NCBI RefSeq assembly: GCF_005771495.1
Contig: NZ_VAUW01000003.1
Coordinates: 62,001 to 126,000 of the forward strand
Length of the DNA: 64,000 nucleotides
Source: Maribacter sp. ACAM166
GTDB lineage: Bacteria; Bacteroidota; Bacteroidia; Flavobacteriales; Flavobacteriaceae
Reading direction: 5' to 3'
A model generated the notes under the pieces. The model saw only the letters and a program-made list of their open reading frames with translations. It ran no database searches and had not been told where the DNA came from. The position numbers were made by a program, and so were the translations under genes. The stretch's first letter is position 1; every line of letters begins with the position of its first letter. Shown piece after piece: positions 41,061 to 61,783 of this stretch.

Positions 41061-41289
41061 TAAATAATAAAATGAATATTTATTCACTCCTCCATAGAAT
41101 GATAAACATTCTGAACATCATCATTATGTATTTAGTTATTTGATTTATAACAATTTATGAATTGAATAAATAAAATTAGTTCGTTATTTGTTCGATTATG
41201 GTAGATGAATTTTAAAAGTAGAATTGACTTAGGCGTTTTGTAAAGAGCGATTGAGTGCTTAATTTAAGGTAAAATCCTTAAAAAATCTG
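41061..41289. other. AT-rich intergenic stretch
   Basis: No gene, repeat or site recognised in these 229 bases between the terminator and the transposase remnant. Confidence 0.5.
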
Positions 41290-42542: not shown

Positions 42543-42864
42543 GTCGATACCGGCTATGTCTATGCCCATAATGCTATGGCAAGCCTAATGAGCAAATAAA
42601 GTCATTGACTCCGACCGCCGTAAAAGCTTTTTTCCGATGGACAAGGTCATTAGCGATGAAACCAATGAAGTCCAATACTTGAAGCATCCATTCTCATTGT
42701 GGGTATCAACTGCACTTCTATTGCCCATCAAAAAAAATACAATGGGACTGATGTAGGTCATTTCTATTCCCGTTCTCATTTATCATCTTTAATTAATCAA
42801 ATTACCGTATCGATTTGTGAACATCAGTACTGTCATATCGTAATGGTTTTAAAAGTATACTAAC
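42543..42864 (+). promoter_or_regulatory. Intergenic region with TGAYSTASGTCA operator
   Basis: Holds one copy of the recurring dyad, TGATGTAGGTCA (42749-42760), 104 bases before the next ATG. A 38-codon frame (42639-42756) is open but unsupported. No other feature seen. Confidence 0.6.
42749..42760 (+). promoter_or_regulatory. Operator copy 1, TGATGTAGGTCA
   Basis: One of five copies of the near-palindrome TGAYSTASGTCA found only in this block. The context ACTGATGTAGGTCATTT is almost identical to the copies before baeRF and hsp20. It serves the membrane protein gene at 42865. Confidence 0.7.
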
Positions 42865-43563
42865 ATGGAAACAGGGAATATATTTAAAAAGGATTTTGAA
42901 ACAAAATTTACAGGTTGGGTTTTTATTGCAGCTGCATTAATGCTTTGGGGGGGATGGATTTTGTCGCCCCATCACATTGGTGAGTATTTGGTAGCTTCAG
43001 ACTTTACCGCTATTGGTGAGCAGGTTTGGCCATGGATTTGGATGTTCCGAATCCATATTTTTGGGTGGGTCATTATGGCCATTGCAATGTTCGCCCTGGC
43101 CTCTATAACATTTAAGAAACCTTATCGGGTTTTAATAGCCCCTGGAGCCGGAATGGTCGTCGTGGGAAGCATTACCCTTGCCCTTGCATCCGCATTTTAT
43201 TATAATTTTGGTGCATGGGGTGTTGGCGAGACCATGGGCAAGTCGGCCGCTGAAATTCAGGAATTCATGGACAATATTCTGTACACGAACCAATACGTCA
43301 CGTGTTTTGTTCGATTTGGACGGGTTTTTTCAGGGGTCGGGTTAGTATTGTTGGGCCTTGGACTTGTAAAATGGAAAATTGTCTATGTTTGGTTAGGTTG
43401 GTTGACGGCCCTATTGGGTCTTGCCGCTATGGGAATTGTCATGGGCATACCCGACAACTTTGAAATCTATAAGCCTCTTTTTCACGTGAAAGCTATCTGG
43501 TTGGGACTCATGGGCATAACGATTCTAAAACGTGGAATTTGCCTTCCGGAGCCTAAATCATAA
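42865..43563 (+). CDS. Polytopic membrane protein of unknown function
   Basis: Protein of 232 residues with about six membrane segments (for example GWVFIAAALMLWGGWIL and IYKPLFHVKAIWLGLMGI). There are several His and Trp residues near the membrane faces (SPHHIGEYL, WPWIWMFRIHIFGW). No known family was recognised. Neighbouring haem and sulfite genes and the upstream operator suggest a role in respiration or quinone handling, but nothing in the sequence proves it. Confidence 0.75.
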   Translation: METGNIFKKDFETKFTGWVFIAAALMLWGGWILSPHHIGEYLVASDFTAIGEQVWPWIWMFRIHIFGWVIMAIAMFALASITFKKPYRVLIAPGAGMVVVGSITLALASAFYYNFGAWGVGETMGKSAAEIQEFMDNILYTNQYVTCFVRFGRVFSGVGLVLLGLGLVKWKIVYVWLGWLTALLGLAAMGIVMGIPDNFEIYKPLFHVKAIWLGLMGITILKRGICLPEPKS

Positions 43564-45170: not shown

Positions 45171-46391
45171 CTATATGACCTTTACCGCAATTCTATGACA
45201 GGCGTTATTGAGATATCCTTTCGGGTTCCAACCGGGCAGCAACATGGGTTGACTGGTACCTTGAGCATCCGTTGCCCTTGCCCATATCTCATAGTACCCT
45301 TTCTTCGGAAAACCGATACTTGCTGAAAAATGCTGCCATGCCAAACGGTTAGCAGGTTTTTCAACAGGGCATTCCTTCCAAGTAGCACCAAAATCTATGG
45401 AATACTCCATTTTTGATACTTCCAATTCTCCCGCCCATGCGTGCCCCCTGATATTCAATTGCTTTCCCTCTTTGATTGTCGCACCGGATTTGGGATAGGT
45501 AATCAATGATTTCACGGGCATTGATTCTATAATACACATGTCCTCGTCCTTCACTTTTTCGCCCGGCGCTACGGGGTTGCAAGGAACACGATAGGCGTCT
45601 CCTGTCATCTTCGGACCGTCATGTACGACATTTCGAATACTAATTCTATTTACCCATTTTCCCGAAACGGAAGCGGGCCAACCGCCAGCTACCAATCTAA
45701 GTGGGTAGCCATGGGCAATCGGAATATCTTCGCCGTTCATTTGAAATGCCAGTAACGTCTCGTCCTGTAAAGCTTTGGGCATCGGAGCACCTCGGGAAAT
45801 GGGTTCTTTATCGGGATCTCTACTAAGGTGTACATCGGCAGCATGGTACCCTATATAAACAGCATCGTCTTTCATACCGACATCTTCCAGTACATCACGT
45901 AGGCGTATCCCCGTCCATGTAGCACAGGATACCGCTCCCACCGTCCATTGATTGCCCTTCGCCGGCGGGTCGAATTCACTTCGGCCATTACCCCCGCATT
46001 CCAATGTAAGCTGATAAGTATATTGCGGAAACTTAGATTTTAGATCAGCCAACGTAAAGATTTTTTCTTGGTTTACCGATTCTCCATCAATGGTCAATGT
46101 CCAACTATTGGCATTCAAATTTTCAGGAATAAGCCCGTTGTTTCGTATAAACATATATTTATTTGGAGTGATTTTATCATCCAACAAATGTGCTTTGGCT
46201 TCTATGTTCCATGGTTTGTCATTCAATACCTCCATGCCCTTGTCCTTATTGAACATTTTAAAGGGGTCTGGGTCTTGAAAGGCTAAAGGCCGATATCCCT
46301 TGGGCATGGTAGCGGCAAAGACTATTTCCGATCCAATAACTGCGGTCATGGAACCCAAAATGGCTTTTCTAACAAAGTTTCTTCTTTTCAT
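45171..46391 (-). CDS. Molybdenum sulfite oxidase-family dehydrogenase, SorA-like
   Basis: Protein of 406 residues that oxidises sulfite to sulfate, or a related substrate, in the periplasm. An N-terminal twin-Arg segment (KRRNFVRK) and hydrophobic stretch suggest Tat export. The molybdopterin domain has the Cys ligand C132 in ECGGNGR (CAGNRR in classic sulfite oxidases). The C-terminal Mo-co dimerisation domain includes VSKMEYSIDFGATW. It heads a reverse-strand operon with a cytochrome c and a fatty acid hydroxylase. Two operator types precede it. Confidence 0.88.
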   Translation of the reverse strand: MKRRNFVRKAILGSMTAVIGSEIVFAATMPKGYRPLAFQDPDPFKMFNKDKGMEVLNDKPWNIEAKAHLLDDKITPNKYMFIRNNGLIPENLNANSWTLTIDGESVNQEKIFTLADLKSKFPQYTYQLTLECGGNGRSEFDPPAKGNQWTVGAVSCATWTGIRLRDVLEDVGMKDDAVYIGYHAADVHLSRDPDKEPISRGAPMPKALQDETLLAFQMNGEDIPIAHGYPLRLVAGGWPASVSGKWVNRISIRNVVHDGPKMTGDAYRVPCNPVAPGEKVKDEDMCIIESMPVKSLITYPKSGATIKEGKQLNIRGHAWAGELEVSKMEYSIDFGATWKECPVEKPANRLAWQHFSASIGFPKKGYYEIWARATDAQGTSQPMLLPGWNPKGYLNNACHRIAVKVI

Positions 46392-46507: not shown

Positions 46508-46519
46508 TGACCTACGTCA
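46508..46519 (-). promoter_or_regulatory. Operator copy 2, TGACCTACGTCA
   Basis: Second copy of TGAYSTASGTCA, farther upstream of the sulfite dehydrogenase gene (117 bases from its ATG). Confidence 0.65.
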
Positions 46520-46665: not shown

Positions 46666-46677
46666 TGACCTACGTCA
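46666..46677 (+). promoter_or_regulatory. Operator copy 3, TGACCTACGTCA
   Basis: Identical to copy 2. It is centred about 43 bases before a start predicted from the -7-like TAATTTTA (46701-46708), upstream of the DUF6799 gene. Confidence 0.7.
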
Positions 46678-46737
46678 TTTTGAAAGCCATAAACGGAACT
46701 TAATTTTACCGTATAATTAATTCTAAAATATAATGTG

Positions 46738-47415
46738 ATGAAAAAAATACTGCTTTTAACTGCATTTGTTGTTCTAGGAACTACAATGCTTACAGCCCAA
46801 GATCAAGATAAAGTTCAAGATCGTGATCAAGACCGTTTAATGTTGGTCGATGGCGATGTGCTACAAATTCGAGATAGAGATCAAATACGATTACAAGACC
46901 CGATTACATTAAATGACGGTACCGTTGTGAACCTTGATGGTTCTTACCTAACGAGGGATCGTGACAGATTACGTTTGAAGGATGGCGAATGTCTGGACAA
47001 TGATGGTGTCATGTACCGCAACGAATATCAATATCGATACAAGGTAAAACAAGAGAACAAAGGATTAAACGAAGCCCAGATAAATGAGCGTAACCAAAAC
47101 AGGTATCAAGTGATGATGATCGATGGGGAAGTCTACCAAATTAGAAATAGGGAACAAAACCGACTTCAGAATCAGGTCAATCTAGGGGACGGATTGGTCG
47201 TAAACCCGGATGGAAGCTATCAAAATGCCCAGCGGCAACAATTACGCCTTCAGGACGGGGAGTGCATCAATATGGATGGGGCCAAGTTCAAGAACATGTA
47301 CCAACATCGCAAAACGATGCTCCAAAAAAATAGGATGGGCAACAAAAAAATGATGAATAAGAAAGGCGTGAAGAAACCTGCAACGAAAAAGAAGGGAAAA
47401 AAGGCGACTAAATAA
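46738..47415 (+). CDS. Secreted DUF6799-repeat protein
   Basis: Protein of 225 residues from the ATG at 46738; a GTG three bases earlier is also in frame. A signal peptide (KKILLLTAFVVLGTTMLTAQ) is followed by two copies of a unit with L-x-D-G-D/E-V-x-Q-I-R-x-R, L-x-N/D-G-x-V-V-N-x-D-G-S-Y and L-x-D-G-E-C. This matches DUF6799. A strongly basic tail (KKPATKKKGKKATK) ends it. Rich in Gln, Asp and Arg. Function unknown; probably periplasmic. Confidence 0.8.
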   Translation: MKKILLLTAFVVLGTTMLTAQDQDKVQDRDQDRLMLVDGDVLQIRDRDQIRLQDPITLNDGTVVNLDGSYLTRDRDRLRLKDGECLDNDGVMYRNEYQYRYKVKQENKGLNEAQINERNQNRYQVMMIDGEVYQIRNREQNRLQNQVNLGDGLVVNPDGSYQNAQRQQLRLQDGECINMDGAKFKNMYQHRKTMLQKNRMGNKKMMNKKGVKKPATKKKGKKATK

Positions 47416-48566: not shown

Positions 48567-49871
48567 ATGAAAAATATTGCATTCATTTTAGGAATATTTC
48601 TTTTTGTCCTACCTATAAAGGCCCAGGAAAACCTTCCGATTTCCAAACAGGAGGTCTTGGCAAAGGTTAAAGAAAATAACACTGCTTTGAAAATGGCCCA
48701 ACAAGATATTCTGATGGCCAAGGGTGATTTTAATCAGACCAATGCGGTGCTTTTACCTACTATTGGAATATCCCATACGGGTATTGCAACTACGAATCCC
48801 TTAATGGCCTTTGGTTCTAAATTGAACCAGGAAATATTGACGCAGGCGGATTTTAACCCCGACTTATTGAACGACCCAAGGCAAATAAAGGATTTTGCTA
48901 CACGGGTGGATGTGCAACAGCCCTTGTTGAATTTGGATGGGCTCTACCAGCGAAAAGCAGCAAAAGCAAAGTGGAACGCCACCGAACTACAATCGGAAAG
49001 AAAGCAAGACTATGTGGCCCTTGAAGCGGATAAGGCATACATGCAATTACAGTTGGCTTATAAAACGGTAGAAGTACTTCAAAAGGCCAAGGAATCGGCT
49101 TCGGAAAATCTACGGATAGCCAACAACAGTTTTAGACAGGGGTATCTACAGAAGTCCGATGTATTAGCGGTAGAGGTACGTGTGATGGAAATCGATAATC
49201 AGTTGCAGTATGCCAAAAGCAATATCCTAAATGCGTCCAATTCCCTTTCTGTTTTGATGGACACAGATTCAAACCAGATTTTAAAACCTACGGATTCGCT
49301 GACCTTAGTTTCTGAAACGATTTCCTCAGAAGAATTTCTTGACGATAGAAAAGATATTCAGGCCATGGAATCCATTTCAGATGCCTACAATCAACAATAC
49401 AAGGCGGACAAAATGAGTTTTCTGCCCCGTTTGAATGCCTTCGGTACTTATGAATTACATGATAACGAAGTCTTCCAAGGTAATGCCAAAGGTTACCTTT
49501 TCGGAGCCTCGTTGCAATGGAACATTTTAGAAGGCACCAAACGCTTCGGGAAAGCCCAAAAAAGTAAAGCAGAGCTTGAAAAATCGAAATTGGAGCTTCA
49601 TCAATACAAAGCGGAGAGCCAATTGGAACTCAACAAGGCAAACAGAATGTTGTCTGATGCCAAGAACAATATAAAACTAACGCAACTGGCCTTGGAACAG
49701 TCCAAGGAAGCGCTGCGTATAAGAACCAATCGGTTTGAGCAGGGCCTTGAGAAAACCACGGAACTACTCATGGCCGAAACACAATATTCGCAAAAGCAAT
49801 TGGAATACTACGCCACGATTTTTCAACACAATTATGCGTTGGCGTATGTAATTTTTTTGACTAAAGAATAA
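48567..49871 (+). CDS. TolC-family outer membrane efflux protein
   Basis: Protein of 434 residues with a signal peptide (to about AQENL) and the duplicated long helical coiled-coil pattern of the TolC/OEP family (two segments rich in A/L/Q/E, with a possible equatorial region near 200-260). It is the outer-membrane channel for the RND pump encoded downstream. It is followed after 3 bases by the adaptor gene region. Confidence 0.92.
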   Translation: MKNIAFILGIFLFVLPIKAQENLPISKQEVLAKVKENNTALKMAQQDILMAKGDFNQTNAVLLPTIGISHTGIATTNPLMAFGSKLNQEILTQADFNPDLLNDPRQIKDFATRVDVQQPLLNLDGLYQRKAAKAKWNATELQSERKQDYVALEADKAYMQLQLAYKTVEVLQKAKESASENLRIANNSFRQGYLQKSDVLAVEVRVMEIDNQLQYAKSNILNASNSLSVLMDTDSNQILKPTDSLTLVSETISSEEFLDDRKDIQAMESISDAYNQQYKADKMSFLPRLNAFGTYELHDNEVFQGNAKGYLFGASLQWNILEGTKRFGKAQKSKAELEKSKLELHQYKAESQLELNKANRMLSDAKNNIKLTQLALEQSKEALRIRTNRFEQGLEKTTELLMAETQYSQKQLEYYATIFQHNYALAYVIFLTKE

Positions 49872-49913
49872 AACGTGAAAAGAATTATACCCTTGAATCT
49901 AAAAGAAATAAAA

Positions 49914-50999
49914 ATGAAAAAAATAAACTATATTCTATTGCTGACCGGTGTCTTGGCACTTGCGGTAAGCTGCGGTGGAAACGACGCCAAGGTAGCAGCC
50001 CATACCACGGACGTAGTTCCGGTACAGGTAAGAACTGTTGCGAAGGAAGACCGTGGTGCATTGTTAATGGTTAGCGGCACGGTAGAAGCGGTAAAAAGTA
50101 GCGCAATAAGCACCCGAATGATGGGGTATATGGATAGAATCTATGTGAACGTCGGGGATAAGGTGCGAAAGGGTCAGCTCTTGTTGAGTATCAACAATGC
50201 CGATTTGTCCGCCAAACTGGCGCAGGTAAATGCGGGCATCACGGAAGCATCGGTAGCGTTCAGCAATGCCGAAAAAGATTTTAATAGGTACACAACCCTT
50301 TTTAACGAAACTAGTGCCTCCCAGAAAGAATTGGATGATATTTCAGCGAGCTACAATATGGCCAAGGCACGATTGGAATCGGCCAAACAAATGAAAAATG
50401 AGGTCAATGCGCAATTTTCGTACGCCAATATACGGGCACCTTTTAATGGAGTGGTAACGAACAAATTCATCAATGCAGGGGACATGGCAAATCCTGGTAT
50501 GCCCTTATTGGAAGTGGAGGCTCCTGGCAATTTTCAAATACTGGCCATGGTTCCTGAATCTGAAATTTCACAAATTAAAGTGGATACTGAAGTTGACGTG
50601 CTCGTAAAATCTTTAAATGAAAGTGTATCGGGCAAAGTAGCTGAGGTAAGCACCTCGGCAAAAAGTACCGGCGGCCAGTATTTGGTAAAAGTATTATTGG
50701 ACAAAACTGAAACCAACCTCATGTCAGGTATGTATGCGACAGTACAATTTCCGACAGGGGAAAAAGCGATCTCCCAAGCGGTTTTTGTGCCGCTAGAGGC
50801 CATTGTGAAGCGAGGACAGTTGTCGGGGATTTATACCGTCAGCCAAAATAACACCGCATTGCTACGTTGGCTGCGTTTAGGTCGAACGTTTGGGGATAGG
50901 GTAGAGGTACTCTCAGGGCTATCCCCCGATGAACAATATATCATCGGCTCACAAGGGAAATTGTACAACGGGGCAAAAATCAGTCTTTACGTAAAATAA
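49914..50999 (+). CDS. RND efflux periplasmic adaptor (HlyD/MFP family) lipoprotein
   Basis: Protein of 361 residues. From the ATG at 49914 it has a lipobox (AVSC, Cys 20); an upstream in-frame GTG (49875) would put extra residues before the signal and is rejected. It shows the lipoyl half-motif VKSSAISTRMMGYMDRIYVNVGDKVRKGQ, a helical hairpin and NIRAPFNGVVTNKFINAGDM. It bridges the TolC-like channel and the RND pump. Confidence 0.93.
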   Translation: MKKINYILLLTGVLALAVSCGGNDAKVAAHTTDVVPVQVRTVAKEDRGALLMVSGTVEAVKSSAISTRMMGYMDRIYVNVGDKVRKGQLLLSINNADLSAKLAQVNAGITEASVAFSNAEKDFNRYTTLFNETSASQKELDDISASYNMAKARLESAKQMKNEVNAQFSYANIRAPFNGVVTNKFINAGDMANPGMPLLEVEAPGNFQILAMVPESEISQIKVDTEVDVLVKSLNESVSGKVAEVSTSAKSTGGQYLVKVLLDKTETNLMSGMYATVQFPTGEKAISQAVFVPLEAIVKRGQLSGIYTVSQNNTALLRWLRLGRTFGDRVEVLSGLSPDEQYIIGSQGKLYNGAKISLYVK

Positions 51000-51095
51000 C
51001 AAAGCACTATGAAATGAGCATTAAAAAATCTAGATACAATCGAGATGATTAATTGCGAATTACATCTGACTTAACAAAACAATAAAAATAAACAG

Positions 51096-54000
51096 ATGAA
51101 AGAAGGATTAGCAGGCAAAATTGCCAAGGTCTTTATCGGGTCAAAACTTACGGTGCTCCTGATGATCGTTTTTATGGTCATAGGGGTGTACAGTTCGTTT
51201 CTCATTCCAAGGGAAGAAGAACCACAGATTGATGTGCCGATGGCCGATATATTTGTGGGATACCCAGGGGCAAGTCCCACTGAGGTAGAATCACGAGTCA
51301 TCAAACCTTTGGAAAAATTGATTTCGAACATCAAAGGGGTGGAGTATGTCTATTCCACAGCGATGAAAGAACAGGGTATGGTCATCGTTCAGTTTTATGT
51401 GGGCGAGGATATAGAACGTTCTTTTGTAAAGCTTTACAATGAAATCAACAAGCACATGGATATTATGCCCCAAGGGGTAACATTTCCCTTGGTCAAAACA
51501 AGGGCGATTGATGACGTGCCCATGTTGGGACTGACCCTATGGAGCGAAAATTATGATGACTATCAATTAAAGCAGATCGCCCAAGAACTTACCGACGAAA
51601 TTGAAAAAGTAAACGATGTGTCCGCTACCCAAAAAATAGGAGGACGCAACCGACAGCTTAGGGTTGTTTTGGATAAGGATAAAATGGCCGAGAGCGGATT
51701 GGATTTTCTATCGGTTTCCGAAATGATAAAAGCCAACAATCATCAATTGGCCAGCGGTAGTTTTGACAAAAACGATACGGAGTTTTTGGTCACTACAGGC
51801 CGATTTCTGGAGAATAAAGAAGATGTAGAAAATTTGGTCGTGGGAACGCAACAGAACAGACCTATTTATCTAAAACAGATTGCCAATATTCAGGATGGCC
51901 CCGAACTACCCAAGAACTATGTTTCTTTGGGTTTTGGTCAGGCCAGCGAAAAGGCATCCAGTTATAAATCGGAATATCCTGCGGTAACGATTTCCATTGC
52001 AAAGCGCAAAGGTGCCGATGCCATGAAGATTTCGGATATCATCCTTGAAAAAGTAGACCATCTGAAAAAGGACTTGATTCCAGATGATGTACATGTGGAA
52101 GTAACCCGTAACTATGGCGAGACCGCATCCCATAAAGTTTCGGAGCTGTTGATGCATTTGATCGGTGCCATTATAGCCGTAACCTTTGTGGTCATGTTGG
52201 CGATGGGTTGGCGAGGCGGTTTGGTGGTATTCCTTTCCGTACCCATAACATTTGCGTTGACCTTGTTGAGCTACTATATGTTAGACTATACCTTGAACCG
52301 AATTACGCTTTTTGCCTTGGTATTCGTAACGGGAATCGTAGTGGATGATTCTATCATCATTGCAGAAAACATGCACCGGCATTTTAAGATGAAAAGGTTG
52401 CCGTTCAAGCAAGCTGCTTTATACGCAATAAATGAAGTCGGTAACCCTACCATTTTGGCCACCTTCACGGTAATCGCATCGGTATTGCCAATGGCTTTCG
52501 TTTCTGGGCTTATGGGGCCATATATGTCCCCCATGCCCATAGGTGCTTCCATTGCGATGATATTATCGCTCTTCGTCGCCTTAACTATTACCCCCTATTT
52601 GGGATATATTTTCCTAAGAGAAAAAGAAACAAAGGGTAAAGAGAAAGTAGAAAAACCTTTAGAGGATACTTTCATTTATCGCATTTACGAAAAGTTTGAA
52701 AAACCACTAATTGAGAACAAAAAGAAACGTTGGTTGTTTTTGGGGATTACCTTCTTGTTGCTATTAGGTTCGATGGGATTGTTCTTTACGAAATCGGTCG
52801 CCGTTAAGATGTTACCTTTTGATAATAAGAACGAATTTCAGGTCGTCATCGATATGCCCGAAGGCACCACTTTGGAACGCACAGGAGTCGTTGCCCAAGA
52901 AATAGCGCAATACTTGGCTACACGCCTAGAAGTAGTGAATTATCAAAGTTATGTAGGCACTTCGGCACCCATAACCTTTAACGGTTTGGTACGGCATTAT
53001 GATTTACGGGGCGGCAGCAATATGGCGGATATTCAAGTGAACTTGATTGACAAAAGAGAACGAAGTGCTCAAAGTCATGACATTGCCAGCCTTTTTCGTC
53101 CAGAAATACAGAAGATCGGGGAAAAGTACAATGCGAATATCAAAATAGTAGAAGTTCCACCCGGACCACCTGTGCTCTCGACCATAGTTGGGGAAATCTA
53201 TGGCCCTGATTATGACCAGCAAATCGATATTGCCGATCAAGTACAGGGTATTTTAAAGAACACCCAAGATGTAGTGGATGTGGATTGGATGGTAGAGGCC
53301 GAGCAGACCGAATATGAATTTATCATCGATAAAGAAAAAGCAATGCTTTATGGGGTGGCACCACAACAAATTGCCCATACCATGAACATGGCGTTATCGG
53401 AAAGGGCGGTAACTACGCTGTACGATGAAAATGCCTCCAACCAAATCGGATTGATTCTGGCCATGGATGAAAAGGAGAAATCAACCATCAATGATATTGC
53501 CCAACTGAAGGTAAAATCATCGCAGGGTAACATGATTACCGTAGGCGATTTGGTTCAAATCGAGGAAGCTACGCGAGCAAAAAACATTTATAGAAAGAAC
53601 CAGAAACGGGTCGTCTATGTACTCGCCGATATGGCCGGGGAACTCGAAAGTCCGGTATATGCCATTTTGGGCATGACGGACAAGCTAGCGGCCATGAACC
53701 TACCAGAAGGATATTCCATTGACGAACTTTATCTGGACCAACCCGAATTCGAAGATGACTATACCGTTAAATGGGATGGGGAATGGCAGATTACCCTAGA
53801 AGTTTTTCGGGATTTAGGATTGGCTTTTTTAGGGGTTATCATCATTATTTACATCTTGATCGTAGGCTGGTTCCAAAACTTTAAGACACCTATTGTCATG
53901 ATGGTTGCCATCCCGTTATCTCTGATAGGAATTATTTTAGGGCACTGGTTGTTGGGCGCATTTTTTACGGCCACGTCTTTTATAGGAATGATTGCTTTGG

Positions 54001-54338
54001 CCGGAATCATGGTACGGAACTCTGTTTTACTTATTGATTTCGTCAATTTACGTCTGGCAGACGGAATACCCATAAAACAAGCGGTAATCGAAGCAGGAGC
54101 TGTACGAACCACTCCCATTTTATTGACTGCGGGCACGGTAGTTATTGGTGCCTTTGTCATTTTGTTCGACCCAATTTTTCAAGGTTTGGCCATCTCCTTA
54201 ATGGGTGGTACAATTGTATCCACGGTATTGACGCTTTTGGTCGTGCCTTTGGTTTACTACATGATTGAGCGCAAAAACTATCTCGAAGAACCCGAAACGG
54301 TTGTTGTTGAAGAAGTTGAAATACAAAAAAATAAATAA
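51096..54338 (+). CDS. RND-family efflux pump permease
   Basis: Inner-membrane proton-driven pump of 1080 residues with the 12-helix RND layout: one N-terminal segment, a large periplasmic loop with PREEEPQIDVPMADI, a central helix block with TGIVVDDSII (proton-relay Asp pair), a second loop with PPGPPVLSTIVGEIYG and a final helix block. The motif pattern suggests the HAE/AcrB side more than metal-type CzcA. The substrate is unknown. Confidence 0.93.
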   Translation: MKEGLAGKIAKVFIGSKLTVLLMIVFMVIGVYSSFLIPREEEPQIDVPMADIFVGYPGASPTEVESRVIKPLEKLISNIKGVEYVYSTAMKEQGMVIVQFYVGEDIERSFVKLYNEINKHMDIMPQGVTFPLVKTRAIDDVPMLGLTLWSENYDDYQLKQIAQELTDEIEKVNDVSATQKIGGRNRQLRVVLDKDKMAESGLDFLSVSEMIKANNHQLASGSFDKNDTEFLVTTGRFLENKEDVENLVVGTQQNRPIYLKQIANIQDGPELPKNYVSLGFGQASEKASSYKSEYPAVTISIAKRKGADAMKISDIILEKVDHLKKDLIPDDVHVEVTRNYGETASHKVSELLMHLIGAIIAVTFVVMLAMGWRGGLVVFLSVPITFALTLLSYYMLDYTLNRITLFALVFVTGIVVDDSIIIAENMHRHFKMKRLPFKQAALYAINEVGNPTILATFTVIASVLPMAFVSGLMGPYMSPMPIGASIAMILSLFVALTITPYLGYIFLREKETKGKEKVEKPLEDTFIYRIYEKFEKPLIENKKKRWLFLGITFLLLLGSMGLFFTKSVAVKMLPFDNKNEFQVVIDMPEGTTLERTGVVAQEIAQYLATRLEVVNYQSYVGTSAPITFNGLVRHYDLRGGSNMADIQVNLIDKRERSAQSHDIASLFRPEIQKIGEKYNANIKIVEVPPGPPVLSTIVGEIYGPDYDQQIDIADQVQGILKNTQDVVDVDWMVEAEQTEYEFIIDKEKAMLYGVAPQQIAHTMNMALSERAVTTLYDENASNQIGLILAMDEKEKSTINDIAQLKVKSSQGNMITVGDLVQIEEATRAKNIYRKNQKRVVYVLADMAGELESPVYAILGMTDKLAAMNLPEGYSIDELYLDQPEFEDDYTVKWDGEWQITLEVFRDLGLAFLGVIIIIYILIVGWFQNFKTPIVMMVAIPLSLIGIILGHWLLGAFFTATSFIGMIALAGIMVRNSVLLIDFVNLRLADGIPIKQAVIEAGAVRTTPILLTAGTVVIGAFVILFDPIFQGLAISLMGGTIVSTVLTLLVVPLVYYMIERKNYLEEPETVVVEEVEIQKNK

Positions 54339-55643: not shown

Positions 55644-55655
55644 TGATCTAGGTCA
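55644..55655 (+). promoter_or_regulatory. Operator copy 4, TGATCTAGGTCA, with class II geometry
   Basis: Copy of TGAYSTASGTCA. A -7-like TATCTTTC lies at 55679-55686, so the centre of the site is about 42 bases before the expected start. The next gene is the baeRF protein at 55736. Confidence 0.75.
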
Positions 55656-55735
55656 TTTCATATAAAACACTCCTTTTCTATCTTTCCGTTTGTAGAAACT
55701 ACAATAAAGAGGTCTACCTAAAACTTAGTTAGAAA

Positions 55736-56890
55736 ATGGCATTGATCACAAAAAAGGAAATCGAGGAGTTGGACGGTATCCATAGCGAAAGCTGCATTTC
55801 TATTTTCATACCCACCCATCGTGCAGGGGAAGAGGTATTGAAGGGAAAGGACGCCCTTAAACTAAAGAACCAATTGAAAGAAGTCAGCAACAAGCTGGAA
55901 AAAGAGGGAATGGGCCCTAGGGAGATCGACACCCTCATCACACCCATTCAAGAACTTTTGGATGACAGCGAATTCTGGCGGCACCAATCTGATGGACTTG
56001 CGATTTTCCGTTCCGATAGTTTTTTTAAAAAATATACGCTTCCCGTTCATTTCGAGGCCTTCGATTATGTGGCAAATGGGTTTTACCTAAAACCTTTGCT
56101 TCCCATGTTTGCGGGCGATGGAAGTTTTTACGTTTTGGCCTTGGAACTAGAGAAAGTAAGACTCTACGAGCAGACCAGGCACAGTATCGCCGAGGTCGTC
56201 CTCGATGATTTGATTCCGTCACGTATGGAAGAACGTGTAGGCTATGATTACGAGCCGAAAAGCCTTCAGTATAAAAGCGGGGCAGATGCCCAGGGCCGGG
56301 CCATGTACCACGGCCATGCGGAAGGAGACCGGGATCGCAAGAACGAAATAGCTCGATATTTCAGGGCGATCGACAAAGGACTGATGACCCTTTTGAAAGA
56401 TGAAAACGTTCCGATGGTCGTCGCATCGCAAGACTATTTGTTTTCGATATATAAAGAGGGAAACAGTTACCAACATTTGTTGGACGGCCCTATAACCTGC
56501 AATCTGTCGGAGACCGATACCTTGCTCTTGCACGAAATGGCCTGGGAAAAAGTCGCTCCAATTTTTGATGGGGAGCGCAAGGAAAAAATAGAAAACTTTA
56601 AGCAATATGATGGTACGGGCAGAACTTCCTCTGAAATAGAGCAAGTAGTGCCCGCTGCCTTGGACGGAAAAATAGACACGCTTTTCGTGCAGAATAGCAC
56701 CGATATCTGGGGCATCTACGATCCCGAAAAAAGACATGTGAGGGTAGATGAAGAGCCATTGTCCTCAAGTGTATCGCTATTGAACAAAGCGGCTATCAAA
56801 ACCTTTTTGAACGGGGGCAAGGTCTATTTATCGGAAAAAGATGAAATGCCGAACCCGCATTCAAAAGTGAACGCACTATATCGGTATTAA
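55736..56890 (+). CDS. baeRF-family release-factor-like protein
   Basis: Protein of 384 residues that matches the bacterial archaeo-eukaryotic release factor (baeRF) superfamily, related to eRF1/Pelota domains. Seen are an N-terminal segment with ISIFIPTHRAG, a middle domain (AGDGSFYVLALELEKVRLYE) and an eRF1-domain-3-like C-terminal part (GKIDTLFVQNSTDIWGIY). Such proteins are thought to act on stalled or stressed ribosomes, but none has been proven to do so. It heads an operon with an HPF-like gene and a lipoprotein. Confidence 0.82.
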   Translation: MALITKKEIEELDGIHSESCISIFIPTHRAGEEVLKGKDALKLKNQLKEVSNKLEKEGMGPREIDTLITPIQELLDDSEFWRHQSDGLAIFRSDSFFKKYTLPVHFEAFDYVANGFYLKPLLPMFAGDGSFYVLALELEKVRLYEQTRHSIAEVVLDDLIPSRMEERVGYDYEPKSLQYKSGADAQGRAMYHGHAEGDRDRKNEIARYFRAIDKGLMTLLKDENVPMVVASQDYLFSIYKEGNSYQHLLDGPITCNLSETDTLLLHEMAWEKVAPIFDGERKEKIENFKQYDGTGRTSSEIEQVVPAALDGKIDTLFVQNSTDIWGIYDPEKRHVRVDEEPLSSSVSLLNKAAIKTFLNGGKVYLSEKDEMPNPHSKVNALYRY

Positions 56891-56984
56891 GCGACTATTT
56901 GAGATGATAGGTATAACAAAAGTCCTTACCGGTTTTCATTGCTCAAATGGCATTTTATTTAAAGAAAACAAAAAATAACAATCG

Positions 56985-57284
56985 ATGAAAGTGAATATTC
57001 AATTTGTACAGACCGCCCAGAGAAAATGGGCAGAAGAATTAGTCGATCAAAAGCTGGATGATCTGGGCCAAAAATACGACTGGATTATTGGAGCCGACGT
57101 TTTTTTCAAAGAGGAAAAAGATACTGACGGAAAGGGTAAAATATGCGATATACGCTTGAGTTTGCCTGGCCCTAGAATATTCGCATCCTCTGATGAAGAA
57201 AGCTTTGAAGCCTCTGTCGCCGAGACCATTCGCGATTTGGAAGTCCAACTTAAAAAGAGGAAGGCCCAGATGAGCACCCATTGA
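56985..57284 (+). CDS. Short HPF/RaiA-like ribosome-associated protein
   Basis: Protein of 99 residues with the beta-alpha-beta-beta-beta-alpha pattern of the sigma-54 modulation/HPF family (MKVNIQFVQTAQRKWAEELV, DVFFKEEKD, CDIRLSLPGPRIFASS). The C-terminal helix is basic. It lacks the long C-terminal dimerisation domain of long HPF. Likely binds the 30S A/P-site region of idle ribosomes. It lies 94 bases after the baeRF gene and 25 before a lipoprotein gene. Confidence 0.8.
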   Translation: MKVNIQFVQTAQRKWAEELVDQKLDDLGQKYDWIIGADVFFKEEKDTDGKGKICDIRLSLPGPRIFASSDEESFEASVAETIRDLEVQLKKRKAQMSTH

Positions 57285-57309
57285 AACCTAATATGAAACC
57301 CGAGATAAA

Positions 57310-57999
57310 ATGAATATCCGTAGCGTTATCCTTATAGTAGTATTTTTAGGTATCGTAAACGCATGCCAACCTCCCGTAGTTTTCGGCGAGCCGCAGCCCA
57401 GCGATACAAAACCGCTATCGGCGATTCCCCGTGACTATCAAGGCATCTATTGGTGCAAGGTCGATAGTGCCTCCTTATTTATTGATGACCGAACTTTTAT
57501 CAAGCGAAAGGAATTCCTGATAAAAATGACCCGTGCCGAAATAGATTCCAGTAATGATCTTGAACTTCGCAACGGTAGGTTGTTCGTAAAAGAATGGGAA
57601 ACCGACTTCCCCACTAATGAAAAAGGCGATACTATCGTGTCAAAGGTCGTTATGCGCGATACCATTTTTGCGATACGGGAAGGACAGGTTCTGAAACCCT
57701 ATAAAGGACATCTCATCTTGAATACCAAATTGGACGAAGATGGTTGGGCAGTTTTGGTGGCTTCCCACAAAGGGATCGGAACGCTTTCCCTTTCACGGGC
57801 CGAAATCCCCGAAAACCTCTCACAATTAGATGCCATCACTCCTGTAAAAATGCTAACAGAAGGTGATGAAGAAGGAACACAGATCTACATTACCCCAACG
57901 GCGGAGCAATTTGGCCGTATTCTGGATCGAGGCCTACTATTTAATTCCTCCTGTTCCGAATTCGAACGGATTATTCCTTTGCCGGAGCATATCTATTAA
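57310..57999 (+). CDS. Lipoprotein of unknown function
   Basis: Protein of 229 residues with a lipobox (IVNAC, Cys 19) and a mostly beta, acidic C-terminal domain. No family is recognised. It follows the HPF-like gene in what looks like a three-gene operon under the TGATCTAGGTCA site. The combination with ribosome-associated neighbours is unexplained. Confidence 0.75.
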   Translation: MNIRSVILIVVFLGIVNACQPPVVFGEPQPSDTKPLSAIPRDYQGIYWCKVDSASLFIDDRTFIKRKEFLIKMTRAEIDSSNDLELRNGRLFVKEWETDFPTNEKGDTIVSKVVMRDTIFAIREGQVLKPYKGHLILNTKLDEDGWAVLVASHKGIGTLSLSRAEIPENLSQLDAITPVKMLTEGDEEGTQIYITPTAEQFGRILDRGLLFNSSCSEFERIIPLPEHIY

Positions 58000-58037
58000 A
58001 GTTGTTTCAAAAATAATCTCAAAAAAGTATACTGTAC

Positions 58038-58049
58038 TGATGTAGGTCA
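58038..58049 (+). promoter_or_regulatory. Operator copy 5, TGATGTAGGTCA, before hsp20
   Basis: Same 12 bases as copy 1 (also preceded by AC and followed by TTT). A -7-like TACTTTAG at 58073-58080 sets the centre at about -43 from the expected start. The hsp20 ATG is at 58122. Confidence 0.75.
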
Positions 58050-58121
58050 TTTTCAAAACTAGATGCTGATTGTACTTTAGGGTCAGATTTAAATGATTGT
58101 TTAACCCAAAATTATAACATT

Positions 58122-58583
58122 ATGTCACTAGTAAAATTTAGAAGAAGACCTTTTGGAAATCTCGCAACCCAAGATTTTTTCGACATGGACAATTTTTTCG
58201 ATAACCGATGGGCAAGTAACATGCTTCCCGAGAATTTTTGGAACGGCAAGTCGGCCGAACCTGCCCTGAACATCAAGGAAAACGATGATAATTTCGAGAT
58301 CGAACTTGCCGCGCCCGGTTTCGGTAAAAAAGACTTTGAAGTGACCATTGAAGATGGTTGCCTCAATATCAAGGCCGAAAAAGAAACCTCCGAAGAGGAG
58401 AAGGACGACAACTATACCCGTCGTGAGTTCAGCTACAACGCTTTCGAGCGTTCGCTGCAATTGCCCGATAGCATAAAGGATGAAGACATCAAGGCCAAGT
58501 ATGACGGTGGTATCTTGAGCTTTAAATTGGCCAAAAAAGAAGAGGCCAAGAAATTGCCGCCCAAAAAGGTACAGATCGCTTAA
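58122..58583 (+). CDS. Hsp20/alpha-crystallin family small heat shock protein
   Basis: ATP-independent holdase chaperone of 153 residues. The alpha-crystallin domain covers about 44-145 with APGFGKKDFEVTIEDGCLNIK and the conserved GILSFKLAK strand. The basic tail ends PPKKVQIA. In many bacteria this protein is induced by heat, low oxygen or stationary phase. Here the upstream dyad suggests control by a CRP/FNR-type activator. Confidence 0.92.
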   Translation: MSLVKFRRRPFGNLATQDFFDMDNFFDNRWASNMLPENFWNGKSAEPALNIKENDDNFEIELAAPGFGKKDFEVTIEDGCLNIKAEKETSEEEKDDNYTRREFSYNAFERSLQLPDSIKDEDIKAKYDGGILSFKLAKKEEAKKLPPKKVQIA

Positions 58584-58704
58584 TACTGTTAAGAATCAAA
58601 ATGCCCTCTTGCCACCACCTAAATGCGTCCATGTAAATAGGTTTGGTTCGGGGGCATTGTCGGTTTTTGTGGTGGGTTTGTTATTCCGAGGCAAGCTCTT
58701 TTTT

Positions 58705-58804
58705 GTTATTCCGACGAAGGAGGAATCCCACGCACCGCCGTTCTGACGCTCCGATATAGAGATTCCCTGTCCGTCCGGCAAGCGGGTTCGTGCCTCGGAA
58801 TGAC
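58705..58804. repeat. Inverted-repeat element, copy 1
   Basis: Outer arms GTTATTCCGA (58705) and TCGGAATGAC (ending 58804) and inner arms AGGAATCCC and GATTCC form a nested dyad. The same design recurs at 61531. A further short piece, TTATTCCGAGGCAAGCTC, lies at 58681. It looks like a short REP or MITE-like element without coding capacity, between hsp20 and the ATPase gene. Confidence 0.7.
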
Positions 58805-58850
58805 AACCATACTAAAGGAATGACAGATAACAAACAAAACCCCAAAAAAG

Positions 58851-61487
58851 ATGCCCCAAGATCCGTGCGCCCTTCCTGTAGAAAAAATCCTCGCCCAATT
58901 CGGCAGCGATAGCGAACACGGTCTTGAAAAAGAAGAAGCCAGAAAGCGTCTTGAAAAATACGGACTGAACCAAATTCCCGAACAAGGCACTAAAAGCCGC
59001 TGGCGAATATTGGCCGATCAGTTGTTCGATCCCATCATCTATATTTTGGCCGTAGCGGCCGTACTCGCATTTTTCTTTAGTGATTTGTTGGAGGGTTTCG
59101 CCATTATCGTTGTAATCCTGATTTCAGTAGGCATCGGATTTTTTATGGAGTTGCAAGCCATCCGTTCCTTGGAGGCATTGCGGAAAATGGGCCAAGCGAT
59201 GATTTATGTCATCCGCTCGGGAAAAAGAATCAAGATCAAAGCTGCAGAAGTTGTTCCGGGCGACATAGTACTCATACAAACCGGGGATGTAATCCCTGCT
59301 GATGCCCGATTGATGACAGTTGATGTGCTATCCGTAAAAGAATCCGCCTTAACGGGAGAAAGTATTCCGGTAACCAAAAAAACCGAGGTGTTAAAAGAAA
59401 AGACCTCGATTACAGAACGGACCAATATGGTCTTTAGGGGAACAATGGCCGTTACGGGATCGGGCAAGGCTGTGGTAATTGCCACCGGGAAAAATACCGA
59501 ACTGGGCAAGATCCAACAAATGGGCGTGGATGCGCATAAGGAACGCACGCCTTTGGAAAAGAAACTGAACCAATTGAGCAAATGGCTGATCTGGTTGACC
59601 CTGTTTTTTGCCGTCTTGATTGTGGTTACGGGATATATTCGCGGAAAAGACCTGTTACTCATGATTGAAACGGGCGTGGCACTTGCCGTGGCGGCCATAC
59701 CCGAAGGACTCCCCATCGTAGCCACCATTGCTTTGGCTCAGGGGATGCTGCGCTTATCGAAAAAAGATGTTATCATCAAAAAATTGGAGGCCGTTCAGAC
59801 CTTGGGCGCGACCGATATTATCTGTACGGACAAAACTGGCACGCTGACCGAGGACCAAATGAAGGTGCATACCGTGGTTCTCGGTACTGAATCTTTGAGC
59901 GGAGTGTTTCCCACCAAATCAGATGTCTTGAATTCTGAAAGCAAATATGCGGCTTTTGAGAAAATGATAATGGCTTCCATTCTCTGTAATAATGTTGCTG
60001 CTGACGATGAAGACGGGCAGGGCGATTCCATTGAACTGGCCTTGATACATTTCGCTAACCGTTTGGGCTACGACACGGCCTCCATCAAAAATGAACATCG
60101 CGAAAAGTTCGAACTTCCCTTTGATGCCGAGCGCAAATTGATGGCGACCGTCAACCGGAACAAAGCTAGTTTCGAAGTATTTGTAAAAGGAGCATTTGAA
60201 AGTGTGATGCCCCATTGCGATTCTTATTGGGATGCATCAGGAAGAAAACCCTTCGACCAAAAAGAAGCATGGAACAAAAAATTGGACGGATTGGCATCCC
60301 AAGGACTGCGCACTTTGGCTTTTGCCTTCAAGGAAGTACAGGAAATTCCAAAGAAAAATTACCTGTTAAAAAACCTTACTTTTTTAGGTATTATCGGTTT
60401 TATCGATCCCGCGCGAGCGGATGTAAAACCGGTCATGGATATCTATAAAAAAGCGGGCATACGAGTTGTGATGGTAACGGGAGACCATCCGGGCACTTCC
60501 CGAAAAATAGCGGAAGAAGTAGGTTTGTTGGAACCTGATTCCTCAAATGAAAAAGTCCAATTAGGGAGAAATCTTCAAAACAGCTCGGACGATAATGGTA
60601 ATCTATCCATTGAATTGGGCAAGGCCTCAGTTTTTGCAAGGGTAACTCCCGAGCAAAAATTGAATTTGGTATCCATGTACCAAAAGAACGGTCATATCGT
60701 AGGGATGATCGGCGATGGCATTAACGATGTGCCCGCCCTGAAAAAAGCCGATATTGGCATCGCGATGGGTATTCGTGGCACCGAAGCCGCGCGTGAAGTA
60801 GCGGATGTGATTCTAAAGAACGATAAATTTACGGCCATTGAACTGGGCATCCGGCAGGGTAGGGTGGTGTTTCAGAACATCCGTCAGTTTGTGGTATACC
60901 TTTTGTCTTGCAACCTTGCCGAGATTCTATCCGTGGGCTTGGCGGCATTATTCAATTTACCCGCACCATTGTTGCCGTTGCAAATATTGTTTCTCAATTT
61001 AGTAACCGATGTCTTCCCAGCTTTGGCACTCGGGCTCGGAAAGGGGGAGGCCGATATTATGGAGCAACCGCCCAAAAACCCAAACGAACCTATCATGAGC
61101 CGTCAAGATTGGTCGGCGACCGCAGTTTATGGACTTTGCATTAGTGCCGCCGTACTCGGGGTCGTAGCCTATGGAAATTTTGTATTGGAATTGTCAGCAA
61201 ATACAATCAACAACATGGCATTTTATACCTTGGTCATGGCACAGTTGTTCAACGTTTTCAACATGCCCAAACGGCAAGAATCGTTTGTTAAGAACGAAGT
61301 GACCCAAAACGTTTGGGTATGGGGCGCAATTGTACTTTCATTGTTGATTACCATTGCCGCCTATCTGATACCGCCCGTGGCGGATGCACTTTCTTTACAG
61401 GCCTTGTCCTTTGAACTAGTTGTTACCGTTGTTGGGTTTGGGCTGGGTTCTTTGGTGCTAGCGCAGTTGCTGAAGCGTGTTGCGTAG
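58851..61487 (+). CDS. P-type cation-transporting ATPase, P2 (Ca2+/Mn2+-type)
   Basis: Membrane ATPase of 878 residues with the N-terminal cation ATPase domain, actuator TGES, M4 motif AIPEGLP (transport site), phosphorylation site D327 in ICTDKTGTLTED and GDGINDVPAL hinge. The PEGLP form and length place it in the P2A/PMR1-like branch, so Ca2+ or Mn2+ is likely. The gene is the nearest to Hsp20, apart from the repeat element; the pairing resembles dormancy regulons of other bacteria. Confidence 0.93.
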   Translation: MPQDPCALPVEKILAQFGSDSEHGLEKEEARKRLEKYGLNQIPEQGTKSRWRILADQLFDPIIYILAVAAVLAFFFSDLLEGFAIIVVILISVGIGFFMELQAIRSLEALRKMGQAMIYVIRSGKRIKIKAAEVVPGDIVLIQTGDVIPADARLMTVDVLSVKESALTGESIPVTKKTEVLKEKTSITERTNMVFRGTMAVTGSGKAVVIATGKNTELGKIQQMGVDAHKERTPLEKKLNQLSKWLIWLTLFFAVLIVVTGYIRGKDLLLMIETGVALAVAAIPEGLPIVATIALAQGMLRLSKKDVIIKKLEAVQTLGATDIICTDKTGTLTEDQMKVHTVVLGTESLSGVFPTKSDVLNSESKYAAFEKMIMASILCNNVAADDEDGQGDSIELALIHFANRLGYDTASIKNEHREKFELPFDAERKLMATVNRNKASFEVFVKGAFESVMPHCDSYWDASGRKPFDQKEAWNKKLDGLASQGLRTLAFAFKEVQEIPKKNYLLKNLTFLGIIGFIDPARADVKPVMDIYKKAGIRVVMVTGDHPGTSRKIAEEVGLLEPDSSNEKVQLGRNLQNSSDDNGNLSIELGKASVFARVTPEQKLNLVSMYQKNGHIVGMIGDGINDVPALKKADIGIAMGIRGTEAAREVADVILKNDKFTAIELGIRQGRVVFQNIRQFVVYLLSCNLAEILSVGLAALFNLPAPLLPLQILFLNLVTDVFPALALGLGKGEADIMEQPPKNPNEPIMSRQDWSATAVYGLCISAAVLGVVAYGNFVLELSANTINNMAFYTLVMAQLFNVFNMPKRQESFVKNEVTQNVWVWGAIVLSLLITIAAYLIPPVADALSLQALSFELVVTVVGFGLGSLVLAQLLKRVA

Positions 61488-61530
61488 TTTTTTAAATTGA
61501 ATCTTTTGATAAGACCAACCCCCGTTTTTT

Positions 61531-61610
61531 GTCATTCCGACGCAGGAGGAATCCCACGGCCAGTTGCGCCCTGCTGTTCCGAAAAACAGATTCCTCGTGC
61601 CTCGGAACGA
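61531..61610. repeat. Inverted-repeat element, copy 2
   Basis: GTCATTCCGACGCAGGAGG (61531 onward) with TTCCTCGTGCCTCGGAACGA (to 61610) repeat the copy-1 arms. The middle part differs from copy 1. It lies between the ATPase and the PAS-protein genes. Confidence 0.7.
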
Positions 61611-61783
61611 AAAAACCTTGGTATTACTTTCCGAAACCATCAAGATCTGTGTTATCTCACATAACCTGAATAGTTGAGAAATACTCCTACTACCCTTAAT
61701 CCGCTTAATGGCATATTTCAAAATAGCCTCCAAATTACCATTGCCGCACTTTCATAACTTGCAAAACGAATGCCGATAAACTA

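Follow-up and report, generated by a model that had tools for sequence, protein, structure and literature searches.

According to Table 1 of PMC4082495, the hypoxia-induced genes of Mycobacterium tuberculosis include Rv0079, ctpF, hspX, Rv2629, pfkB, and many conserved hypotheticals; in the text of PMC10901736, Rv2629 is a Balon homolog and Rv0079 is called RaiA. The same text places Balon genes most often adjacent to RaiA genes and commonly near those for Hsp20, HdeD, OsmC, and OsmY. The low-oxygen-activated lxa locus of Burkholderia cenocepacia is presented in PMC9104464 as a strain-variable collection of stress, metabolism, and transport genes, with six universal stress proteins (USPs) and a part in anoxic persistence, and PMC11841059 presents NmpRSTU of Myxococcus xanthus as a two-component system that controls genes for USPs, cbb3 oxidase, and HemN. 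Here, we describe a gene set with comparable content from Maribacter sp. ACAM166 (Flavobacteriaceae), located at positions 55736 to 61487 of a 64,000-nucleotide stretch (the window) that covers positions 62,001 to 126,000 of contig NZ_VAUW01000003.1 (C61). The original prediction, made from the letters of the window, was that a release-factor-like baeRF protein, a short hibernation-promoting factor (HPF), an Hsp20 holdase, and a P2-type ATPase form a dormancy-like set under one dyad. Our analysis indicates that the set is probably cargo of a 159-kb integrative conjugative element, which would carry a complete stress-survival regulon together with its own switch, consisting of a histidine kinase, a regulator in which a receiver is fused to a CRP-type protein (REC-CRP), and operator dyads.

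The gene set and its operators

The predicted grouping was borne out, in that the open reading frame (ORF) list and profile searches with Pfam and NCBIfam place five genes in the interval (Table 1), the gene calls coming from a simple, uncurated longest-ORF script. The baeRF protein scored 144.6 bits (5.2e-42) against NF052287, the equivalog of the AOC03_06830 family, which is under the cut-off of 330; by sequence and predicted fold it is therefore called a Balon-family relative and not an equivalog. Its sole sequence match in the Protein Data Bank (PDB) up to E 1 was 8rd8 (E 5.5e-11), one of the entries deposited by the Balon paper. For a model computed from an alignment of 16 proteins (mean pLDDT, 83.5), Foldseek gave the Balon entries 8rdw, 8rd8, and 8rdv as best matches (E 3.2e-22 to 2.5e-21), with Msmeg1130, aRF1, and Rv2629 next. 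A string check found neither GGQ nor NIKS in the baeRF protein of the window; of the 16 proteins in the alignment, one (L111) has the letters GGQ and none has NIKS. The HPF reached 45.5 bits with Ribosomal_S30AE (cut-off, 23.7) and 27.6 bits with TIGR00741, below the 40.9 of that family, and as a whole protein it is the short form, an S30AE domain without the C-terminal dimerization domain. The ATPase scored 609.7 bits against TIGR01522, a PMR1-type equivalog with a cut-off of 798.3, and contains the motifs DKTGT, TGES, GDGIND, PEGLP, NLAE, and NLVTD. We take PEGLP, the N/E pair, and NLVTD to be Ca2+ ligands, and the substrate is probably Ca2+ (or Mn2+). An Hsp20 gene is directly followed by an ATPase gene in 13 of 27 related loci, and the ATPase of the window is probably co-transcribed with Hsp20. 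By eye, a dispersed repeat (attccgacg..ggaggaatcccacg) has similar copies in two intergenic gaps, 58596-58850 and 61520-61620.

Table 1. Features of the window and of the adjoining part of contig C61
Feature	Position	Strand	Remarks
Displaced 3' end of yebC (att repeat), left end of element	41082-41124	.	81% identity over 43 nt with C61:262047-262089
Dyad of the same type, upstream of ORF 42865-43563	42749-42760	+	No TAnnTT at +23
SorA-like sulfite dehydrogenase	45171-46391	-	
Dyad between the divergent SorA-like and DUF6799 genes	46508-46519	.	Box at +23 towards SorA
Dyad upstream of DUF6799 gene	46666-46677	+	TAATTTT at +23
DUF6799 gene	46735-47415	+	
Dyad TGATCTAGGTCA, operator of baeRF unit	55644-55655	+	Exact to TACTGATNTAGGTCATTT
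Box TATCTTTC, promoter-like	55679-55686	+	TATCTTT, strict TAnnTTT; exactly 23 nt behind baeRF dyad
baeRF, 384 aa	55736-56890	+	Pfam baeRF_family7, 9.7e-44
Short HPF/RaiA, 99 aa	56985-57284	+	Second gene of baeRF unit; Pfam Ribosomal_S30AE, 1.3e-11
Lipoprotein-like ORF	57310-57999	+	Third gene of baeRF unit; without Pfam or NCBIfam match
Dyad TGATGTAGGTCA, operator of Hsp20 unit	58038-58049	+	Exact to TACTGATNTAGGTCATTT
Box TACTTTAG, promoter-like	58073-58080	+	TACTTTA; fits TAnnTT but departs from strict TAnnTTT in the last base; starts exactly 23 nt behind Hsp20 dyad
Hsp20/alpha-crystallin holdase	58122-58583	+	Pfam HSP20, 2.3e-24
P2-type ATPase	58851-61487	+	Nearest NCBIfam family TIGR01522
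Start of PAS/LOV/GAF sensor histidine kinase, 1220 aa	61837-64000	+	Continues beyond the window to C61:127499
REC-CRP response regulator, 356 aa	C61:127630-128700	-	Beyond the window; convergent with kinase

The two units do carry the same operator, as had been proposed. Five matches to the 18-mer TACTGATNTAGGTCATTT with up to 3 mismatches occur in the window versus 0.22 expected in shuffles, for a pattern that was itself written from the baeRF and Hsp20 dyads. The dyads fit TGAY-N4-RTCA, the FNR-like operator class, and stand at a fixed distance from a promoter box; the promoter consensus of Bacteroidota is TAnnTTTG, a string without occurrence in the papers that were searched for it. The proposal that the whole set lies under this dyad stands for the baeRF and Hsp20 units only, since 58584-58850, in front of the ATPase, contains no dyad, and the ATPase would be included only if co-transcribed with Hsp20. 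Elsewhere in the window, the SorA-like and DUF6799 genes diverge, and each has a dyad with a box at +23.

The operator is not confined to the window. Across the 4.92-Mb genome, the 17-mer core ACTGAYSTASGTCATTT with up to 2 mismatches gave 45 strand-places, near-palindromic sites counting twice, versus 1 for the reversed pattern. Most of the 45 are on C61, and the rest are on C63, C51, C38, and a few other contigs, such that part of the regulon lies off the element. On C61, a matrix built from the sites of the same genome identifies 20 distinct dyads, whose positions, from 104.7 to 196.5 kb, all fall within the conjugative element. A strict box with a TGAYNNNNRTCA dyad directly before it is found at the SorA-like, DUF6799, baeRF, and YtxH-like genes, at three BON genes, at the pyruvate dehydrogenase E1 gene, and at genes for four USPs and a Crp/Fnr protein (names partly by eye). 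The block also encodes PfkB, phosphoenolpyruvate (PEP) synthase of the PPDK type, EreA-like, PRTase, PPOX, and FtsH proteins, and HdeD-like, DnaJ, and BON annotations were made on the element by eye. The genes thus share an operator far beyond chance.

The likely regulator and its operator code

Roughly 350 nt behind the ATPase begins the histidine kinase, with PAS, LOV, and GAF domains, and the REC-CRP regulator faces it. The regulator comprises Response_reg, cNMP_binding(-like), and HTH_Crp_2 domains, and its recognition helix has an E...R pattern. Receiver and kinase both contain the motifs that we presume to act in phosphorylation. Given the receiver fusion and a single cysteine (counted by eye), FNR-type Fe-S sensing is not expected of this protein. 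The original prediction had the regulator differ from those of DosR- and Anr-type regulons; this is half right, as the likely regulator is a response regulator of a two-component system, like DosR, but has a DNA-binding domain of the CRP type, like ANR.

We compared 179 genomes sampled from the family, in which homologs at least 53% identical to REC-CRP over almost the full length were called type A and more distant ones, at 40 to 50% identity, type B. Type A was found in 11 genomes besides that of ACAM166, which contains both types. Leaving out the ACAM166 genome, dyads with at most 1 mismatch occur in 9 of the 11 type-A genomes versus 16 of 167 without a close homolog (Fisher, 2.3e-7, a value that ignores phylogeny). 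The reversed pattern occurs in 1 of 11 and 21 of 167 genomes, respectively, and the 16 of 167 are therefore background. Within the 11 type-A genomes, 17 of 21 dyad places are within 35 kb of the regulator gene. A matrix trained on the ACAM166 genome only and applied to 480 kb near close REC-CRP homologs from the 11 other genomes marked 47 sites, every one of them intergenic, with 0.6 expected in resampled sequence; 380 kb from 19 control islands gave 3. Type-B islands have mostly AT-rich dyad cores, and the recognition helix there is mostly TATETAIR versus the IATESLIR patterns of type A. Judged from these comparisons, only the CTAG-core form among the dyads is tied to type-A REC-CRP, and the REC-CRP beside the set is likely the regulator of the dyads. 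The type-B pair of kinase and REC-CRP is widespread (L180 and L161-L179).

The distance between dyad and box is rigid. Of 268 dyad-gene pairs from ACAM166 and the type-A loci, 118 have TAnnTTT at a distance of exactly 23 nt, with at most 5 at any other offset; in type-B islands, the count is 73 of 141 pairs, and other offsets again have at most 5. In 80 named loci with a regulator homolog (the best 80 of 577, which may overlap the sampled genomes), the count at +23 is 119 of 416 pairs, the next offset has 18, and the mean of the others is 2.1. That next offset, 45 nt behind the dyad (L181-L260), is a weaker second peak. When 49 sources of type-A loci were searched for Hsp20 genes at 50% identity or more, identical proteins and lower identities being dropped, all 27 distinct genes had a dyad within 300 bp; the strict box was at +23 in 6 of them and TAnnTT, as read from the boxes, in 20 more, the remaining one (L192) having an upstream stretch too short to read. 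A chance origin of the dyads was rejected on the basis of the shuffles, the reversed pattern, the held-out matrix, and the fixed spacing. Class II CRP/FNR activation would require a fixed geometry of this kind. A repressor needs no fixed distance, and we consider it very unlikely that the dyad is a repressor site or is bound without effect on the promoters.

Several observations weigh against a regulon with its own switch. Two of the 11 type-A genomes show no dyad at up to 1 mismatch, and at least half of the dyad-gene pairs, including the Hsp20 promoter in the window, lack the strict box at +23. The HPF gene of the window, as the second gene of its unit, has no dyad of its own. The strict rule of dyad and box was followed by only 2 of 16 baeRF promoters, both of them ACAM166 copies; of the others, five combine a dyad and a near-box at +23, the dyads of G119 lack a box in register, and eight have no such site near the start. 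Near the regulator, baeRF and HPF are rare. Moreover, the ACAM166 genome encodes stand-alone FNR/CRP proteins that recognize the same dyad class, and the dyads before cbb3 operons are also present in 8 of 9 read genomes without a listed full-length REC-CRP (G123 has none), as are those before HPF in G082, G138, G005, G083, and G008, which lack a full-length REC-CRP.

These last observations bear on the possibility that a stand-alone CRP/FNR protein reads the dyads, either the native FNR-like protein encoded beside the cbb3 operon on C114 or the element's own Crp/Fnr protein at C61:180163. In the family, AT-core dyads with the same spacing precede 29 of 30 cbb3 oxidase operons that were read, and 15 of 30 short HPF genes (L131-L160) have a dyad of the CRP/FNR class with TAnnTTT at +23, which was seen in 0 of 5800 shuffles. 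Because such dyads also stand before cbb3 and HPF genes in genomes without REC-CRP, the dyad class as a whole is one of FNR-like control; for the same reason, type-B REC-CRP was dropped as an explanation of all AT-core dyads. From the HPF promoters, ribosome hibernation appears to be under FNR-type control across the family. An FNR-like gene with CxxC adjoins a cbb3 operon with HemN-like and USP genes on C114 (L291, C114:131845-144126; by eye), in a region with AT-core dyads and boxes, and the element's Crp/Fnr gene is itself preceded by a dyad and box. However, the CTAG-core form tracks close REC-CRP homologs and sits near them, whereas near FNR and the second REC-CRP of ACAM166 the dyad cores are mostly AT-rich and in no case CTAG. 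The element's Crp/Fnr protein has homologs in 160 of 179 genomes and, among the matches listed, is not beside type-A dyads: in type-A genomes, the best of these matches are on other contigs or at least 135 kb from the dyads (by eye). It was judged unlikely as reader of the type-A sites, and reading by any stand-alone CRP/FNR protein is in our view rather unlikely. The REC-CRP regulator is thus preferred for the CTAG-core dyads. Type-B islands were partly chosen for a nearby HPF, which biases HPF counts taken from them; in an unbiased count, among the matches listed, HPF lies within 10 kb of 16 of 85 type-B loci versus about 0.56 by chance.

The conjugative element and the origin of the set

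We interpret the region C61:103082-262089, from window position 41082 onward, as an integrative conjugative element approximately 159 kb long. Its two end zones match each other (blastn, E 1.2e-6), and the frame at the left end reads DDVQNVYHSMEE* versus DDDVQNVYHTMRE* in YebC (asterisks, stop codons). On the right side, a tyrosine integrase lies beside yebC, and the element further encodes a relaxase, MobC-like, T4CP, TraG, TraM, TrbL-like, and ParA-like proteins. It was the combination of integrase, relaxase, T4CP, mating-pair genes, and att at a gene end that led to this assignment. The GC content is 0.416 in the element versus 0.354 and 0.356 in the flanks, and GC at third codon positions is 0.476 (71 genes, 104.5 to 222 kb) versus 0.290 (66 genes left of 103 kb). 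Inside the element, between dyad-bearing units, genes for an outer-membrane factor, a membrane-fusion protein, and an RND-type efflux protein occupy 48567-54338 (by eye).

TraG relatives were found in 15 other genomes of 397, at 52 to 91% identity in 12 of them. The transfer backbone is conserved in other genera, and the cargo differs in the two siblings read, G215 (160 kb) and G347 (60 kb). Neither stretch contained a match to the regulator, Hsp20, or the P2-type ATPase or a type-A dyad; G215 has isolated matches to HPF (51%) and to the ORF at C61:151944 (73%), and G347 has one weak matrix hit. Of the 15 TraG genomes, 12 were checked for REC-CRP, and type A was present in 2, each time on a contig other than that of TraG. 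Conversely, the element's TraG was not found beside the type-A islands in the 11 relatives, 5 of which have a distant TraG (24 to 26% identity) elsewhere. As the type-A islands of relatives thus lack this TraG as a neighbor, the regulon probably predates its association with the element.

Co-occurrence of the five families in other Bacteroidota had been suggested as a check of the original prediction, and a conserved five-gene set was not found in the 80 named loci. Within about 10 kb of the regulator homolog, Hsp20 occurs in 20 loci, a P2-type ATPase in at most 14 (a count that can include other P-type ATPases), baeRF in 2, and HPF in 0, some of the loci being incomplete. A statistical link between baeRF and REC-CRP does exist, as baeRF genes are present in 14 of 77 genomes with any REC-CRP versus 0 of 102 without; this leaves out partial weaker matches in G027, G038, G041, and G093, with REC-CRP, and G135, without, and including them gives 18 of 77 and 1 of 102. 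In G258 (regulator, 75% identity), a more distant baeRF (36%) lies about 25 kb from the regulator.

The families might, then, have come together by chance in a stress island rich in genes, without forming a functional unit. In most relatives, neither HPF nor baeRF lies near the regulator, and in G377, whose regulator is the closest seen among the genomes compared (77%), UPRT is directly followed by the dyad, Hsp20, ATPase, REC-CRP, and kinase. In the window, UPRT is separated from the Hsp20 dyad by a dyad and the baeRF, HPF, and lipoprotein genes. The operator is, however, present at both units, and also at a second copy of the baeRF-HPF-lipoprotein genes on C63 (L036/L037, 33.9 kb), at 88% and 89% identity for the first two; chance assembly is therefore unlikely. 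With G377 showing the order without the cassette and C63 a second copy, a ribosome-silencing cassette with a compatible operator likely entered an older core of Hsp20, ATPase, kinase, and regulator. Contig C63, with a native-like GC content of 0.359, also has a gene for a second P2-type ATPase and an ATP-synthase-type operon preceded by a dyad, and it contains a TraG-like fragment as well as IS21-type genes (the last names by eye). The assembly consists of 114 contigs with 4.58% contamination, and the copies on C51 and C63 could therefore be plasmid-borne or foreign.

Proposed function and comparison with known systems

Building on the element, genes, operators, fixed spacing, and co-occurrence and co-location of operator and regulator, all read from sequence, we propose the following course of events. 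The PAS/LOV/GAF kinase would phosphorylate the receiver of the REC-CRP regulator, and the activated regulator would bind TGAYSTASRTCA dyads centered 29 nt before the start of the TAnnTT(T) box and recruit RNA polymerase in the class II style of CRP/FNR. The Balon-like factor and the short HPF are predicted to silence ribosomes, Hsp20 to protect proteins, and the cation ATPase to be made along with Hsp20. USPs, PfkB, PEP synthase, and others would be further outputs elsewhere on the element. The physiological signal may be energy or oxygen limitation or redox or light stress.

The original prediction favored survival of oxygen loss. The same machinery could equally answer redox, blue light, or general stress as a general survival program, a prospect whose chances we put slightly below even. 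The PAS-type domain at residues of about 520 to 645 of the type-A kinase beside the set matches LOV photoreceptors (7r5n, 1.6e-34; YtvA 2pr5, 1.3e-29) and keeps GKNCRFLQ, the LOV motif being GxNCRFLQ; 7 of 13 type-A kinases read contain it, one of the 13 being incomplete in the stretch read. The first PAS domain has as its best PDB match a multi-sensor kinase, 10jx (3.5e-19), the cargo is broad (FtsH and EreA-like by Pfam; BON, HdeD-like, and DnaJ by eye), and cbb3 genes lie within 15 kb of 0 of 13 type-A regulators. On the other hand, FixL is the next match of that PAS domain (8.3e-11), and in the alignment a histidine is kept with an isoleucine at the arginine position of FixL; these we take to be the positions of the proximal histidine and distal arginine. 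For the type-B kinase of ACAM166, the nearest PDB matches of the PAS domain are the heme oxygen sensors DosP (6.9e-16) and FixL (2e-15). The histidine aligned with that of FixL is kept by all of 18 aligned type-B kinases, whose profile matches a LOV-FixL chimera, DosP, and FixL in the PAS region, and 16 of 85 type-B regulators are within 15 kb of cbb3 versus about 0.7 by chance. For the type-A kinase, given the changed arginine position, the added LOV domain, the lack of a cbb3 neighborhood, and FixL as the second match, oxygen and non-oxygen signals have similar odds.

Ribosome hibernation and dormancy are usually seen as core, vertically inherited physiology. With effectors, operators, and likely regulator together on a mobile element, a shutdown program could be gained by conjugation, and a whole dormancy program may pass between bacteria as a single package. 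We consider it an even question whether this is a self-contained dormancy regulon, with its own kinase, CRP-type response regulator, and private CTAG-core operator code, that would be installed as one package by conjugation and run parallel to a host FNR-like program with the same promoter geometry and AT-rich dyads. A testable operator code for Bacteroidota also follows: at cbb3 oxidase, HPF, and Hsp20 genes, a TAnnTT(T) box stands exactly 23 nt behind a dyad of the CRP class. Within the family, this code ties ribosome silencing to the FNR-like control class.

The logic of DosR- and Anr-type regulons, to which the set had been likened, is recognizable in its content, which resembles the hypoxia-induced genes of M. 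tuberculosis, and in its CRP/FNR operator class; the likeness does not extend to a conserved set of five families. The regulator here ends in cNMP_binding and HTH_Crp_2 and not in an output domain of the NarL/LuxR type, by which DosR binds DNA, the kinase is of the PAS/LOV/GAF kind, and the regulon is on a conjugative element. Two-component control is shared with the DosS/DosT-DosR dormancy regulon (PMC4082495). As in that regulon, the content includes Hsp20, a cation ATPase, a Balon homolog, an HPF-like protein, and USPs. Here, the shared operator stands over Hsp20, baeRF, and USP genes, with the ATPase and HPF only as downstream genes, beside a two-component regulator that would control them. 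ANR, FNR, and FixK share the TGAY-N4-RTCA class and a fixed, class II-like promoter distance, and they differ in that the regulator here is receiver-fused, with one cysteine and no cysteine cluster. As in the Balon operons, baeRF adjoins HPF, Hsp20 is close by, and the element also has BON and HdeD-like genes (by eye); the main text of PMC10901736 contains no word starting with "Bacteroid," and no shared operator or regulator was seen in it. The lxa locus is likewise a strain-variable stress, metabolism, and transport locus with USPs, from another phylum, with no conjugative element or shared operator seen in the part of PMC9104464 consulted. NmpRSTU resembles the present system in its two-component control of USP genes and differs by an NtrC-like regulator, the words "hibernation" and "Hsp20" being absent from the main text of PMC11841059. 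A literature search, judged mostly from titles and abstracts, found no receiver-CRP protein that regulates such a regulon in Bacteroidota. PMC10901736 already describes Balon beside RaiA and Hsp20; not found described in the literature so surveyed were a receiver-CRP protein having an operator core of its own, a promoter geometry this rigid, and the carriage of a whole regulon on a conjugative element. The receiver-CRP fusion would combine phosphorelay input of the DosR type with DNA binding of the ANR type.

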